A stretch of DNA of 42,683 nucleotides from an uncultured Ruminococcus sp. (GTDB lineage Bacteria > Bacillota > Clostridia > Lachnospirales > Lachnospiraceae), in contig CAJFQC010000021.1 of NCBI GenBank assembly GCA_904418845.1, positions 1-42,683 of the forward strand. Reading direction: 5' to 3'. How positions within the stretch are numbered: position 1 is the stretch's first letter; each line of letters starts with the position of its first letter. The notes under the pieces were generated by a model that was not told where the DNA came from, ran no database searches, and saw only the letters and a list, made by a program, of their open reading frames with translations. Of this stretch, positions 1 to 7,410 are shown one piece after another. The position numbers and the translations under genes were made by a program.

Positions 1-66
1 GGTGAGGACGGAAGCCGGGAACAGGAGGTAGAAATCTTTTACCGCTTCATCGGCAAAATTGATTGA
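1..66 (+). CDS. C-terminal fragment of a site-specific recombinase (partial, runs off window)
   Basis: Frame 1 is open from the first base to a TGA at 64-66 and encodes 21 residues ending EVEIFYRFIGKID. This resembles the C-terminal end (DUF4368-like region) of large serine recombinases carried by conjugative and integrative elements of Clostridia. The identification rests on recall of that tail pattern, not on a search. It faces the truncated permease gene at 86-691, as expected if the recombinase gene lies at the end of an element that inserted into that gene. It could instead be an assembly join, because it sits at the window edge. Confidence 0.45.
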   Translation, partial: GEDGSREQEVEIFYRFIGKID

Positions 67-95
67 ATGACACCAATATCTTTAACTATGTGATA
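60..95. mobile_element. Putative junction between an integrated element and chromosome
   Basis: Between the recombinase-like stop codon (64-66) and about position 95 the sequence changes from non-permease to permease coding sequence. On the minus strand the permease reads in frame through VVIPGIT and then meets TAG at 86-88. The family continues for roughly another 70 residues. The break therefore lies within a few codons of 86-95. The exact attachment core cannot be fixed without the other end or an empty site. Confidence 0.4.
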
Positions 96-691
96 CCGGG
101 GATAACCACCCCGAACAACGTCCGCATACGTCCACAACCGTCAACCCTGGCCGCCTCTTCGAGCTCGCGGGGTATCCCGTCAAAAAACGATGCCATTAAA
201 GATACCGTAAAAGGCACCTGCGTAGCGCTGATTGCCAGAACAAGTCCGATATGAGTGTCAACAAGGCCTATCCTCTGCAATATCCCATATAACGAGATCA
301 GACGGCTGATAACAGGCATCATCTGGGCAAATACAAAAGTGGATATGATCCATTTATTCCATTTAAAATGAAATCTGCTTAGTGCATAGCCAGCAAAAAC
401 AGAAACAAAGCAAATCAGGATCATTGCCAGAGCCGACACGACCAGATTATTCTTATAATATGCGAAAAACACTCCGTCCCGGAACAAAGTAATATATCCG
501 TCAAACGACAAGACCTCTGGCCAGAGCGTGGGGACTACCTGGTAAGATTCTGCATTCAGCTTCAGAGACGTTACAAGCATCCAGTAGACCGGAAAAAGCA
601 AAAACAGAAAAATCAGGATCAGGGCCACATATTTTCCAAAAACTGCCGCGATCTTTATTCTTCTTTTTCTTACAGTGATATTTTGATTCAT
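86..691 (-). pseudogene. Carbohydrate ABC transporter permease, MalG type, truncated at its 3' end
   Basis: Inner-membrane permease of a CUT1-type sugar importer. It would pair with the MalF-type protein upstream and receive substrate from the lipoprotein at 1736-3053. The 201 residues include an N-terminal membrane helix, the periplasmic P3-type segment and several further helices. They end inside the EAA loop (EEAARVDGCGRM...VVIPGIT), which normally contacts the ATPase and is followed by one or two more helices. The family is about 270-280 residues. The start at 691 has AAGGAGGATAAGC directly upstream. The missing third is explained by the apparent element junction at 60-95, so the gene is probably non-functional here. 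A spliced or alternative 3' end beyond the window cannot be excluded. Confidence 0.85.
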
Positions 692-709: not shown

Positions 710-1651
710 TCAATCAGTATCCGTACGGAAAACGCGCTTAAATACGAAGACCACTATAATCATCAAGAGCAGCCATACCGTTGTCACTGCCGCGCCCGAA
801 CCATAATTATAATTTACAAATGCCTCGTCATATGACAGCACGGCCAGGGTCGTCGTAGCTCCTGTCGGTCCGCCGTTCGTCAATGTAGCGAACAAGGGAT
901 ACTGTTTGAAATTCTCAATGATACACATGGATACAGAAACTGAGATTACGCTCTTCATATAAGGAATCACAATATAAACCAGACGCTGTATATAGTCGGC
1001 TCCATCGATTTTTGCTGCCTCTACAATATCATCCGGAACATTCTGCATACCGGCAAGCAGCAGAAGCGCCATCAGCGGGATCTGCTTCCACAGCGCAGCG
1101 ATAATGACTCCCCACAACGCTGTATCAGTATTGCTTAAAATACTGAAATCCGTAACATGTCCCCCTGTAAAAACACTCACCAAGTACTGGAGCAGACCAT
1201 ACGGGTTGGCAAAAATCCACATCCACAGCAAGCCGGCGATAACTGTTGGAACCACCCAGGGGATCATCATGATGCTCCTCAACAGCCTTGCTCCTTTGAT
1301 CTTTGAATTCAATATCAGAGCCAGTATCAAAGAGATCAAAAAGGTGAGTACAACCGTCACGAAGACAAAGAACACCGTGATCAGGATCGAAGACTGTAGA
1401 CGCCCGGATTTCCACAACCGTGTATAATTACCGAAATTGTTCCATTCACCCGGAATATTCTGTGTAAGATTTACCAGCCTGTAATCTTGAAAGCTCATGA
1501 TAACAGAATCAATGATAGGAATAATGATAAATGTTATACACAGTACAACCGCTGGAAGCAAAAGCAGCAAACAGAACAACACGTCTTTTCTTTTCTGATT
1601 ATGTAATGCCGGTCTTTGTGTTTTCTTGCCGGCCTTAACTGGAAAAGTCAT
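710..1651 (-). CDS. Carbohydrate ABC transporter permease, MalF type
   Basis: Partner membrane subunit of a CUT1 sugar importer, 313 residues with six predicted membrane segments. The first helix (about residues 25-50) follows a basic, Gln/Lys-rich N terminus. The EAA loop is visible as IVEAAKIDGADYIQRLVYIVIPYM at about residues 210-235, the coupling site for the ATPase. No ATPase gene is in the cluster, so a shared MsmK/UgpC-type ATPase encoded elsewhere is inferred. The gene lies between the binding protein (upstream) and the truncated MalG-type permease, with 18 bp to the latter. A hairpin at 1698-1724 separates it from the binding-protein gene. Confidence 0.92.
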   Translation of the reverse strand: MTFPVKAGKKTQRPALHNQKRKDVLFCLLLLLPAVVLCITFIIIPIIDSVIMSFQDYRLVNLTQNIPGEWNNFGNYTRLWKSGRLQSSILITVFFVFVTVVLTFLISLILALILNSKIKGARLLRSIMMIPWVVPTVIAGLLWMWIFANPYGLLQYLVSVFTGGHVTDFSILSNTDTALWGVIIAALWKQIPLMALLLLAGMQNVPDDIVEAAKIDGADYIQRLVYIVIPYMKSVISVSVSMCIIENFKQYPLFATLTNGGPTGATTTLAVLSYDEAFVNYNYGSGAAVTTVWLLLMIIVVFVFKRVFRTDTD

Positions 1652-1735: not shown

Positions 1736-3053
1736 TTACTGGTTAAGATAATATTCTGCTTCTGTAATATAACTGTTGACCGAGTCTTCCGGGCTGCCTC
1801 CATTGTTCACATAATTCAGCACCATACTGGCCAGTTCTGTCTGCACGCTCGTCGCCGCGCTGATCAGAGGCTGGTTTATAACATTGTCTTTTCCTGAAGA
1901 GGCGCCGTCCAGAATCGGGGATATCTGACAGTCTTCCATATTTTCATGGGCTACATAAGCAAGCCCGATATTATTAAGATAGTCTTCCATTGTGCCTGTT
2001 GACGTACAATACTGGATGAAAAGATCCACTGCTTCTTTCTGCGCGTCACTCAGGGCGGAACCGATCATAAAGCAGTGAGATTCTACCAGAGACTCTCCTT
2101 TTCCGTTCGTCCCCATCGTAGCAGGCAGGGATGCAGTTACTGTAAAGTCTGCCGTATTATCTGCCACTTCCGCAATCTGTGCATACCCCCATGACTGATC
2201 TACATACATCACAACATTGCCCGCTCCAAAAGAAGAACGGTAATCTTTCAGTTTCAGATTTTCCTGTGTATAACCATTGCCGATCAAGTATTTATAAAAA
2301 TCCAGCATTTCTGTCATTGCTGTCATATTGTCGCCGGATGTCAGGTCGTCCAGTTCACCCTGGTCATTGATCAGCGTGCCGCCAAATGCATTGTACATTG
2401 CGTTTATGTTAGCCCCTGTCGCCGATACTTCCGCTGTAGTAAGACCAAAAATTGATGTCACGCTGGAATTTCCCTCGTAATAAGCAGCCAGTGTTTCAAT
2501 CCATTCTTTAAGCCCATCAAGCGTCGTCGGGAAATTATCCATAGACAGCCCCCCCCGCTTCTACCAGATCCTTGTTCACAAAGATCAGAGACGGACTGTA
2601 ATAATGCGGAACAGCATAAACTGTATCCTGATACTTTAACTGATCCAGGACATAGTCATAATACCCGGAATAGAAATCTTCACTCAGCACATCTGTCGGG
2701 CTCTGGATAAATCCACTTTCCGCCAGCGCCGGTATCCAGCTTACTTCACCATACACCATATCGACAGCAAGACCAGAAGCAAGGTCGTTTGTAAAAGTCT
2801 GTATCATACTATTGTAATCCACTGTAACCGTCTCAATATCAATCCAGTTATTCTCCGTTTCAAAAGCCTCAACCGTAGAATTCCACCAATCCGCTTTTGC
2901 TGTTTCTGACAGAGCATAGTTGTAAAACCTTAATGTAACATTTTCCTTTTCTTCATCGGCGGATGACGTTGTCGCATCATCTCTGCCTCCACCACAAGCT
3001 GTCAGGCTAAATGCCATAGCCATTGCCAGAAATGCTGTCATCTTTTTTTTCAT
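1736..3053 (-). pseudogene. Extracellular sugar-binding lipoprotein, frameshifted at a G8 tract
   Basis: Family 1 extracellular solute-binding protein that would capture a sugar for the adjacent permeases. The N terminus is a lipoprotein signal peptide with lipobox LTAC at about residues 17-20, so the mature protein would be lipid-anchored outside the cell. Two overlapping reading frames (2535-3053 and 1736-2542) each hold part of the protein. They join in a run of eight C on the plus strand (2549-2556). Removing one base gives NKDLVEAGGLSMDNFPTTLDGL, which fits the family, and yields 438 residues, a normal length. Either the gene is phase-variable, recently inactivated, or the tract was misread. 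The start at 3053 is preceded by a GGAGAGTAG-like site. The promoter at 3109-3137 drives it. Confidence 0.85.
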
Positions 3054-3244: not shown

Positions 3245-3289
3245 GTAAAAACAATACAGACATCTGCAGCTGTGCCGTCAGATGTCTGT
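3245..3289 (-). terminator. Rho-independent terminator overlapping the LacI-family stop codon
   Basis: An 11-bp stem (ACAGACATCTG with CAGATGTCTGT, 3256-3289) is followed on the minus strand by TATTGTTTTTAC. The stem includes the stop codon of the regulator at 3278. It separates the regulator transcript from the ABC operon promoter downstream. Confidence 0.7.
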
Positions 3290-4297
3290 ACTTTTCCTGT
3301 AAATGATCTTTGTAGATACATTCACGGGCTCTGGTACTTGATGCTGCTCTATCATTGTCTGAAGCATGTTGATCGCCACGCGCGCAATTTCCGGTCTTCT
3401 GATCTCAACGCTCGTTAATGTAGGCATGACATACTGGCCTAGAGTGGAATTGTCAAAACCGATCACCGCGATATCCTCCGGGATGCGGTATCCCGATTCC
3501 TGGGCGGCCTGCATGGCGAGGCAGGCCACTTTATCGTTCCTTCCAAAAAACGCATCCACCTCTTCCCTGCTGTGGAGATACTCTACAACTCTTTGTTTCA
3601 GGGTTTCCGGACTCTCGCATTCTGTGATAACTCTCGCCGCAGGATTAATACTATAACCGCTTTCCTTCATCTGATGAATAAACCCGCGGTAACGGAGGTC
3701 GTTCATATCACTAAAGTGTCCTCTTGCGCTGTATCGATCTATGTATAGGATATTTCGTCGTCCAAGGCTTCCCAAGTAACGGACGCACTCTCTGGCTCCT
3801 TCATAAAGGCCGTTGTTGATCCGCCCTGCCCCATGGATCTCCGAGTAGTCCCTGTTTTCCAGAAGGACCACAGGAATATTTGCATCTATGAACATCTGTA
3901 TGAAACTCTTGGTAAAACTGATCGAACTGATGATAATCCCATCACAGCAACGTCCAATAATCTCCCTTACAAATTCTTCTGTATTCCTGTTGGAACAAAG
4001 AGACACCATGTATCCTTTGTCATAAGCATATTTATCCAGTTCACTGATCAACAGACTGAAATGCTCGGTTACAATCTGATCCGCTATGAAAACGATATGG
4101 TTGCTGCTTTTACCTTTCAAGGTGCGGGCAATGTTATTCGGGCGGTAATTCAACTTCTTGATCGCCTCTTGGACACGAAGCCTTTTATCCTGTGACACAT
4201 ATCGGTTATTATTTATCACATACGACACAACCGTCTCACTGACTCCCGCCAGCTTTGCCACGTCTTTCCGGGTAGGCCTTACAAACTTAGAATCCAT
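3278..4297 (-). CDS. LacI-family transcriptional regulator
   Basis: DNA-binding sugar-responsive regulator of 339 residues. Residues about 8-60 form the LacI helix-turn-helix and hinge (TRKDVAKLAGVSETVVSYV, then NYRPNNIARTLKG). The rest is a periplasmic-binding-protein-like effector domain, including the typical DIAVIGFDNSTLGQYVMPTLTSV segment near residue 280. The start at 4297 has TAGGAGAT at good spacing. The gene lies directly upstream of the sugar ABC operon in the same orientation and shares a candidate operator with it. The likely role is local repression of sugar uptake plus autoregulation; the sugar cannot be told from sequence. Confidence 0.93.
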   Translation of the reverse strand: MDSKFVRPTRKDVAKLAGVSETVVSYVINNNRYVSQDKRLRVQEAIKKLNYRPNNIARTLKGKSSNHIVFIADQIVTEHFSLLISELDKYAYDKGYMVSLCSNRNTEEFVREIIGRCCDGIIISSISFTKSFIQMFIDANIPVVLLENRDYSEIHGAGRINNGLYEGARECVRYLGSLGRRNILYIDRYSARGHFSDMNDLRYRGFIHQMKESGYSINPAARVITECESPETLKQRVVEYLHSREEVDAFFGRNDKVACLAMQAAQESGYRIPEDIAVIGFDNSTLGQYVMPTLTSVEIRRPEIARVAINMLQTMIEQHQVPEPVNVSTKIIYRKSTDI

Positions 4298-5862: not shown

Positions 5863-6987
5863 TCATTTTACTTTAATCAGCTCATATTCTCTGCTGCCGA
5901 GCCCGATCTTCTCTGCGTGCTCAAGGCACGTCTCCCACTCGCTTTCCGGCGTTGTGTTCACAAAATGGTCGTGATGGTCGCAGAATCCCTCTTCGTGTAT
6001 ATGCTCATAGAGCAGGCTTCCCGGCATAGGTTCCCGCGCGTTGCATGCGTCCGCGCACGCCTGATCCAAAGCTACCGGGTCAAAACTTGCAAACATCCCC
6101 ACATCTGGAAGGATCGGTGCGTCGTTTTCTGCATGGCAGTCACAGTAAGGTGATACATCGATGACAAGATTGATGTGGAACGCCGGGCGGCCGTCAACGA
6201 CCGCTTTTGTATACTCTGCCATCTTCATATTCAGTTCCTTGACCGCTGACGAATTTTCATTATAAACAGCGTCAAAATTGCACGCTCCGAGGCATCGTCC
6301 GCATCCTACGCATTTATCGTGGTCGATCACTGCTTTCTTCTCCGGAAATGAGATCGCGCCGTGAGCGCAGTTCCTGGAACAGGCGCGGCAGCCTACGCAC
6401 AGCGACTGATCCACTGACGGCTTTCCGCTGTTGTGCTGTTCCATCTTCCCGGCACGGCTTCCGCAGCCCATACCGATATTTTTGATACATCCGCCAAAGC
6501 CCGCCATCTCGTGTCCTTTGAAATGACTCAGACTGATGAATATATCCGCATCCATGACAGCACGGCCGATCTTCGCCTCTTTCACCAGCTCGCCGCCCTC
6601 AACCGGAACAGCCACATCGTCCGTCCCTTTCAGACCGTCTCCGATAATGATATGGCAACCTGTAGAGAGGATATTAAAACCGTTCTCATAAGCTGAACTT
6701 AAGTGCTCAAGAGCATCTTTCCTCCTGCCCACATACAGCGTGTTGCAATCCGTCAGGAAAGGGCGCCCTCCCAGCTCTTCCACCACGTCTGCCACCGCTT
6801 TCGCATAGTTCGGACGCAGGAAGGACAAATTCCCCGGTTCACCGAAATGAATCTTGATGGCTGTCATTTTCTTTTCGAAATCAATACCGCTGATCCCTGC
6901 TTTCTTGATCAGCTTTTTGAGTTTATCCGGCAGACTTGTGCCCGGAAGAGCTCTCATATCTGTAAAAAATACCTTTGATCTTTCCAT
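5863..6987 (-). CDS. DUF362 domain protein with two 4Fe-4S ferredoxin motifs
   Basis: A 374-residue protein of the DUF362 family, whose reaction is not established. The N-terminal half is the DUF362 fold (KIHFGEPGNLSFLRPNYAK, DADIFISLSHFKGHEMAGFGG). A bacterial ferredoxin insert lies at about residues 190-240 with two cysteine clusters, CVGCRACSRNC and CVGCGRCLGAC, each able to hold a 4Fe-4S cluster with more distal Cys. The C-terminal part has conserved Cys/His/Asp (DVSPYCDCHAENDAPILPD). No signal peptide is seen. The gene precedes the NSS symporter by 13 bp. An electron-transfer role is inferred. Confidence 0.9.
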   Translation of the reverse strand: MERSKVFFTDMRALPGTSLPDKLKKLIKKAGISGIDFEKKMTAIKIHFGEPGNLSFLRPNYAKAVADVVEELGGRPFLTDCNTLYVGRRKDALEHLSSAYENGFNILSTGCHIIIGDGLKGTDDVAVPVEGGELVKEAKIGRAVMDADIFISLSHFKGHEMAGFGGCIKNIGMGCGSRAGKMEQHNSGKPSVDQSLCVGCRACSRNCAHGAISFPEKKAVIDHDKCVGCGRCLGACNFDAVYNENSSAVKELNMKMAEYTKAVVDGRPAFHINLVIDVSPYCDCHAENDAPILPDVGMFASFDPVALDQACADACNAREPMPGSLLYEHIHEEGFCDHHDHFVNTTPESEWETCLEHAEKIGLGSREYELIKVK

Positions 6988-7014
6988 ATCTTTTCCACTC
7001 CTTTTATACTGAAC

Positions 7015-7410
7015 TTATTTTGCCGCACAGAACGTTGTAGCTGTCACCGCGGCGGTCAGATTTCCATAGCCGTCTTTCACATCAATCCTGTAATAGCTTG
7101 TCGTTCTTCCTTTTTTAATACAGACAGCCTCCGCGGTCAGCCGCTCACCCTTCGCGGCAGTCAGATATGTAATCTCCGAATTCAATGAGACATTACCCAT
7201 TTCCTTCCAATTACCCGCCACTGCAAGGGCGAAATCCGCAAGGGTAAAATAAACGCCGCCCATAACCGCGCCCATGGCGTTCCTGTGCCTGTCTTCGATC
7301 TTGAGACTGCATTTTGCATAATGATCGTCCACTTCATCAATGACCGCGCCGTTATCCGTGGCGAAGCGGTCATTCTGAAAGAGACGCTTCGTTTCTTCTG
7401 ATGGTTTCAT
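7015..7410 (-). CDS. PaaI-family hotdog thioesterase
   Basis: A 131-residue hotdog-fold protein. The motif HRNAMGAVMGGVYFTLADFALAVAGN at about residues 42-67 matches the PaaI/phenylacetyl-CoA thioesterase type, with the Gly-Gly turn and the acidic residue on the central helix. Such enzymes hydrolyse acyl-CoA thioesters, often aromatic ones. The true substrate is unknown. A possible weak ribosome site GAGGAGACGG lies before the start at 7410. It lies 27 bp upstream of the DUF362 gene in the same orientation. Confidence 0.85.
   Translation of the reverse strand: MKPSEETKRLFQNDRFATDNGAVIDEVDDHYAKCSLKIEDRHRNAMGAVMGGVYFTLADFALAVAGNWKEMGNVSLNSEITYLTAAKGERLTAEAVCIKKGRTTSYYRIDVKDGYGNLTAAVTATTFCAAK

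Follow-up and report, generated by a model that had tools for sequence, protein, structure and literature searches.

A probable integrative mobilizable element that interrupts a sugar permease gene belongs to a family with an apparent preference for one codon block of XRE-type regulator genes

Integrases are usually described as using either one gene or loosely chosen sites. In the main text of Durrant et al. 2022, DUF4368/TndX-like recombinases are presented as multi-targeting enzymes whose close relatives insert in many genes, with complex target motifs for some clade members, and the terms XRE, HTH and helix-turn-helix have no occurrences in that main text (PMC10083194). The portion of PMC5704250 covered here describes the Tn4451/Tn4453 family of integrative mobilizable elements (IMEs), which use the recombinase TnpX, and reports for Tn4451 a MobV relaxase and hosts among the Clostridia. 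According to the covered portion of PMC12904643, IME_Rho_tet is an IME of gut Bacillota of about 10 kb with a serine recombinase, 21-bp terminal inverted repeats, tet genes and mobC, and its commonest targets are MAFF2 genes (116 of 256 sites). The element family analyzed here appears to address a protein family and not a gene. Its recombinase would be tuned to the DNA of a K-W-E-x-G turn of XRE-type regulators, with wobble positions tolerated, and the family would knock out regulators of distant hosts on arrival and spread resistance genes without one conserved gene; we put the probability of this reading at about 0.6.

The window analyzed is one whole contig of 42,683 nucleotides (G000:C21:1-42683) from an assembly of 51 contigs with a completeness of 95.28%. 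Its first 66 bases, which the first-pass annotation had read as the end of a recombinase gene, translate to GEDGSREQEVEIFYRFIGKID followed by a stop, and this peptide is 100% identical to residues 520-540 of a 540-residue recombinase from a related element. The full-length relative contains Resolvase, Recombinase, zinc-ribbon and DUF4368 domains (Pfam), and its best sequence match among solved structures is TnpX (chain 2mhc, E 2.5e-29). The proposed relationship to DUF4368 was borne out by Pfam for the two proteins scanned, the full-length relative (E 2.4e-23) and a longer tail on contig C36 (E 7e-20). These 66 bases are the only element coding DNA inside the window, and the content of the element is deduced from its relatives. 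The terminal arm reads ATCTTTAACTATGTGATACC, and the boundary between element and host falls at 97/98. The dinucleotide GG stands directly after the right arm in 77 of the 80 loci listed from named genomes and after the left arm in 37 of 40 left ends. A search with the 20-base arm pattern (up to three mismatches) gave six matches in this genome including that of the window, and the reversed control pattern gave none. It is highly probable that an integrated element has its right end in bases 1-97 and that its last gene encodes a TnpX-like large serine recombinase with DUF4368.

Table 1. Features at the left edge of the window (positions in the window).
Feature	Position	Strand	Remark
DUF4368 large serine recombinase, last 21 codons and stop	1..66	+	remainder off the contig
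Non-coding right end of the element	67..97	+	terminal arm inside at 78-97
GG core, common to element end and target	98..99	+	putative crossover point
MalG-type sugar ABC permease, 5' part, 198 codons	98..691	-	cut by the insertion
First permease of the operon, 313 aa, intact	710..1651	-	
Substrate-binding protein gene, split over two frames around 2529-2560	1736..3053	-	
LacI-type regulator of the operon, 339 aa, intact	3278..4297	-	family name by eye

The reading frame of the cut permease is open over 86-691. Beyond base 98 it reads G-I-T-stop from element DNA, the TAG (86-88) lying within the element end. In the same-genus genome G010 the corresponding permease is intact and 91% identical, and DNA similarity of G010 to the window begins at base 95. 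The earlier proposal, in which the permease was interrupted by an integrative element situated to the left and ending in a recombinase gene, agrees with this intact gene and with the presence of the same end on contig C19. Its measurements needed correction: the permease lacks the last 87 of 294 residues (by comparison with the G010 protein), not about 70, and the bases between the recombinase stop and the junction are non-coding element DNA. The frame of the binding-protein gene is split when compared with the intact G010 protein, which may be real or a sequencing error.

The window copy is not the only one in this genome. Using the arm pattern, right ends were located on contigs C21, C19 and C36 and left ends on C8, C18 and C16. 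Contig C19 starts with the window's first 99 bases with three differences, and its flank and that of C18 make up one XRE regulator gene, cut between KWET and G. When this joined gene was used as a query, it matched over nearly its whole length in G012 (76% identical) and G033 (75%); 35 of 58 genomes (own included) passed E 1e-15, many of them over the XRE part only. The right end near the end of C36 (16293-16403, L003) has diverged, with three mismatches and the final arm bases missing, which may prevent this copy from leaving. Together, the flanks on C36 and C8 form one glycosyltransferase gene, which is uninterrupted in 24 of 57 other same-genus genomes. That each of the two flank pairs brackets one host gene upholds the first-pass view of an inserted element. 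A remnant on C16 (C16:1690-5081, L026) has its left end inside a further XRE gene and retains a truncated recombinase; it also holds transposase pieces by eye, and an ANT(6)-like frame (by eye) lies outside it at about 6139-7026. Besides the window copy, the genome has two further insertions and one remnant, and two of its four recognizable targets are not XRE genes.

The element interior was not found in the assembly, where other large serine recombinases are present and the close matches are fragments only. A comparison of 400 bases at each of the 102 contig ends revealed several pairs with exactly 99 bases in common, as in a repeat-broken assembly, and the interior is probably missing because the element is a collapsed repeat. 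Elsewhere in the genome, three large serine recombinase genes stand next to each other, in the same orientation, on contig C11 (C11:66579-71460, L311-L313), with frames of 528-582 aa that are 31-33% identical to the element's recombinase.

The nature of the element was assessed from its relatives. The right-arm scan of named genomes, in which GATACC was required in the right arm, found at least 117 stretches, and the 80 listed ones were analyzed. Their hosts are mostly gut Clostridia, and the recombinase tail is visible in 73 of the 80 loci; six of the other seven have at most 30 bases upstream and L133 has other sequence there. Both arms were sought in 20 genomes, from which 12 regions were taken, nine of them two-ended. 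In these nine relatives the two ends are 4.1 to 11.4 kb apart, with a near full-length recombinase in seven and a MobV relaxase in eight; no MobV is visible in the window genome itself, where the element interior is unassembled. The shortest, L269 (4.1 kb), has kept both ends but neither MobV nor the beginning of the recombinase gene, and L266 encodes RepA_N and XRE proteins (Pfam). A length of 4.1-11.4 kb leaves little room for conjugation machinery (open frames of seven of the nine relatives, read by eye). The first-pass annotation had suggested an ICE or an IME to the left; the size of the relatives together with their MobV favors the second over the first, and judged from their sequences the element is most likely an IME.

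Cargo was analyzed with nine cargo or transposase proteins chosen from three relatives and the NCBIfam cut-offs. Above these cut-offs were Lnu(C), ANT(9), ANT(6) and AAC(6')-Ie/APH(2'')-Ia (L266, L270), as well as an IS1595 transposase, and two relatives examined have aminoglycoside or lincosamide resistance genes. A third relative has cargo (L274:2175-3540) with similarity to a riboflavin kinase and to an ECF-type vitamin transporter component, both below the NCBIfam cut-offs, which is unusual given that other relatives carry resistance genes. Of 397 genomes sampled within the window's family, 24 have left ends, this genome among them. Parts of the element backbone are found in 43 plasmid records, none of which has 80% of the element in one place. 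Campylobacter plasmids account for 28 of the 43 matching records and carry backbone pieces with aminoglycoside resistance genes. The recombinase end of L266 had no matches in 50,697 phage records, and viral contigs gave one arm match, after which GG did not follow.

The far side of the window's copy was traced through the left ends. These belong to the C36/C8 pair, the C18/C19 pair and the C16 remnant, and the left flank of the window copy is therefore unassembled. C8 was considered as the carrier of the permease end and rejected, as it pairs with C36. The missing permease end, for which the first-pass annotation had proposed a search, was not found at the DNA level, the outcome which that annotation had named as refuting its proposal: a stretch of 2,661 bases of G010 with the permease end, an aldolase gene and some of the gene after it gave no DNA match in this genome. 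One explanation is that the far side was lost or rearranged after the insertion, the permease end, aldolase and neighbors having been removed or relocated, for instance when copies of the element recombined. In line with this, other DNA of the same G010 stretch does match C16 at 80-82%, queH on C16 of this genome is followed by different genes, and the best aldolase relatives in this genome are 34-36% identical. However, at 95.28% completeness and with repeat-broken contigs, a piece left unassembled or unbinned would give the same picture. Later loss or rearrangement is a serious candidate at somewhat under even odds; it is compatible with the insertion explanation and concerns the far side only.

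The target site was derived from the flanks of the listed loci. The 79 usable right flanks (the 80 listed minus one at a contig end) are all distinct at 90% over 60 bases, and most have one domain motif in common. Of these listed right flanks, 69 open in frame with G-x-x-x-P, a few of which could be chance; another three look XRE-like but have an AG or GA core, and seven have other sequence. Among 40 distinct left flanks, which in part belong to elements already represented by their right ends, 29 end in [KRHQ]WEx, five in NWEx, one in KCEx and five in other sequence. The preferred site is the codon block (K/R/N)-W-E-x followed by G-x-x-x-P of XRE-type genes, found in 72 of the 79 right flanks and in 35 of the 40 left ones, the XRE assignment being made by motif and eye, not by HMM. 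Most left flanks show the XRE helix-turn-helix by eye, and seven of nine empty sites are XRE-like, the other two not. Bases fixed by the amino acids are conserved and the fourfold wobble positions are nearly free. In the available genome stretches, uninterrupted KWE sites numbered zero with a strict motif and one, not clearly in an XRE gene, with a looser motif; with so few, DNA recognition and protein conservation are inseparable position by position. The last bases of the left arm vary between copies (GATACC, GAACCC, GAAACC, GAATCC and others).

Against this preferred site, the right half-site in the permease gene is a weak target, which ranks in the top 4.3% of the window's 4,971 GG sites and below about 90% of true targets. 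The C19 half scores above every background GG site, and the fit of the C36/C8 site is poor. The permease counts as an off-target with a weak match. The element layout recurs in the annotated record NZ_AP023421.1 (L323, 314117-327656), with the cut between KWES and GTAVPE. In that record the two halves of the cut XRE gene are annotated as two separate regulators, and gene tables can therefore hide such insertions. Off-targets, which make up seven of the 79 right flanks and five of the 40 left flanks, would also be expected of a recombinase of little specificity that hits XRE genes mainly because they are dispensable, and relaxed specificity is on record for some members of the recombinase clade (PMC10083194, main text). 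The insertions nevertheless have a codon and a register in common, which dispensability alone does not explain, and such a recombinase is a very unlikely source of the pattern.

The neighborhood of the insertions was analyzed using 77 neighboring frames (from 128 listed, mostly short ones dropped). ABC transporters were the commonest Pfam match (6 of 77), and no conjugation family was present among the 25 listed of 91 Pfam families. PHROGs, with 25 of 40 families listed, gave single matches to a DNA polymerase and a tail protein. The idea that the element wakes a helper by breaking the repressors of resident phages or ICEs found no support in these frames.

The first-pass annotation had also proposed that the transporter is disabled while the element is integrated, as in known phage or element switches. 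In such a reversible switch, the element would excise precisely under some condition and make the permease whole again. Excision is within the capacity of serine recombinases (PMC5704250, covered portion) and the junction at the permease is clean. Set against these points, the element usually targets a regulator gene, occupies different sites in different genomes and is multi-copy in this one, and the permease end was not found at the DNA level in an assembly that is incomplete. Furthermore, the operon also has its binding-protein gene broken over two frames and thus gives the impression of decay, not of switching. A reversible switch is accordingly doubtful in the extreme. A chimeric contig end, the case that would have undone the earlier proposal, is the least credible alternative: the junction does lie less than 100 bases from a contig end and several contig ends share exactly 99 bases, but the same boundary between arm and GG recurs in 77 of the 80 loci listed from other genomes and this genome holds two independent flank pairs.

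For the reading that the family addresses XRE-type regulators, we propose the following mechanism. The recombinase would join a circular form of the element to the host DNA by crossover at the GG core between two inverted arms of ~20 bases, in the manner in which TnpX acts for Tn4451 (PMC5704250, covered portion), and the element would move between cells with a helper. The preferred DNA would code for the turn that follows the recognition helix in XRE-type regulators, with the sequence S-(K/R/N)-W-E-x followed by G-x-x-x-P. As the K, W and E codons vary little, many regulators in many hosts would offer a usable site, which in turn could make the element multi-copy and wide in host range. In the window, one copy entered a weaker match in the sugar permease gene and truncated the permease, with the stop codon supplied by the element.

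A codon block common to a large regulator family could explain copy number and host range together. In gut Clostridia, relatives of the element have resistance genes as cargo, and every insertion of this type breaks a regulator. With arms, core and target defined to this degree, a direct recombination test has become feasible.

Compared to known systems, the element resembles Tn4451 in its TnpX-like recombinase, the MobV relaxase of its relatives and its Clostridia hosts. It differs from Tn4451 in its core, which is GG here (77 of 80 right and 37 of 40 left ends) and GA in Tn4451, and in having a defined target, whereas Tn4451 has low specificity; no chloramphenicol gene was among the selected cargo proteins scanned from three relatives. 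Its DUF4368 domain (Pfam) is shared with the multi-targeting clade, but nearly all targets here are one codon block of one domain family. Like IME_Rho_tet, as presented in the covered portion of PMC12904643, it is most likely a gut Bacillota IME with a serine recombinase, terminal inverted arms, intragenic insertion and, in relatives, resistance cargo; unlike IME_Rho_tet, it shows no MAFF2 preference, and 72 of 79 right flanks have the XRE motif. Searches of the text of open-licence papers turned up no element of this sort for which XRE genes are named as the target. The kind of element is known, being IME-like with a multi-targeting serine recombinase, and what appears to be new is the target.
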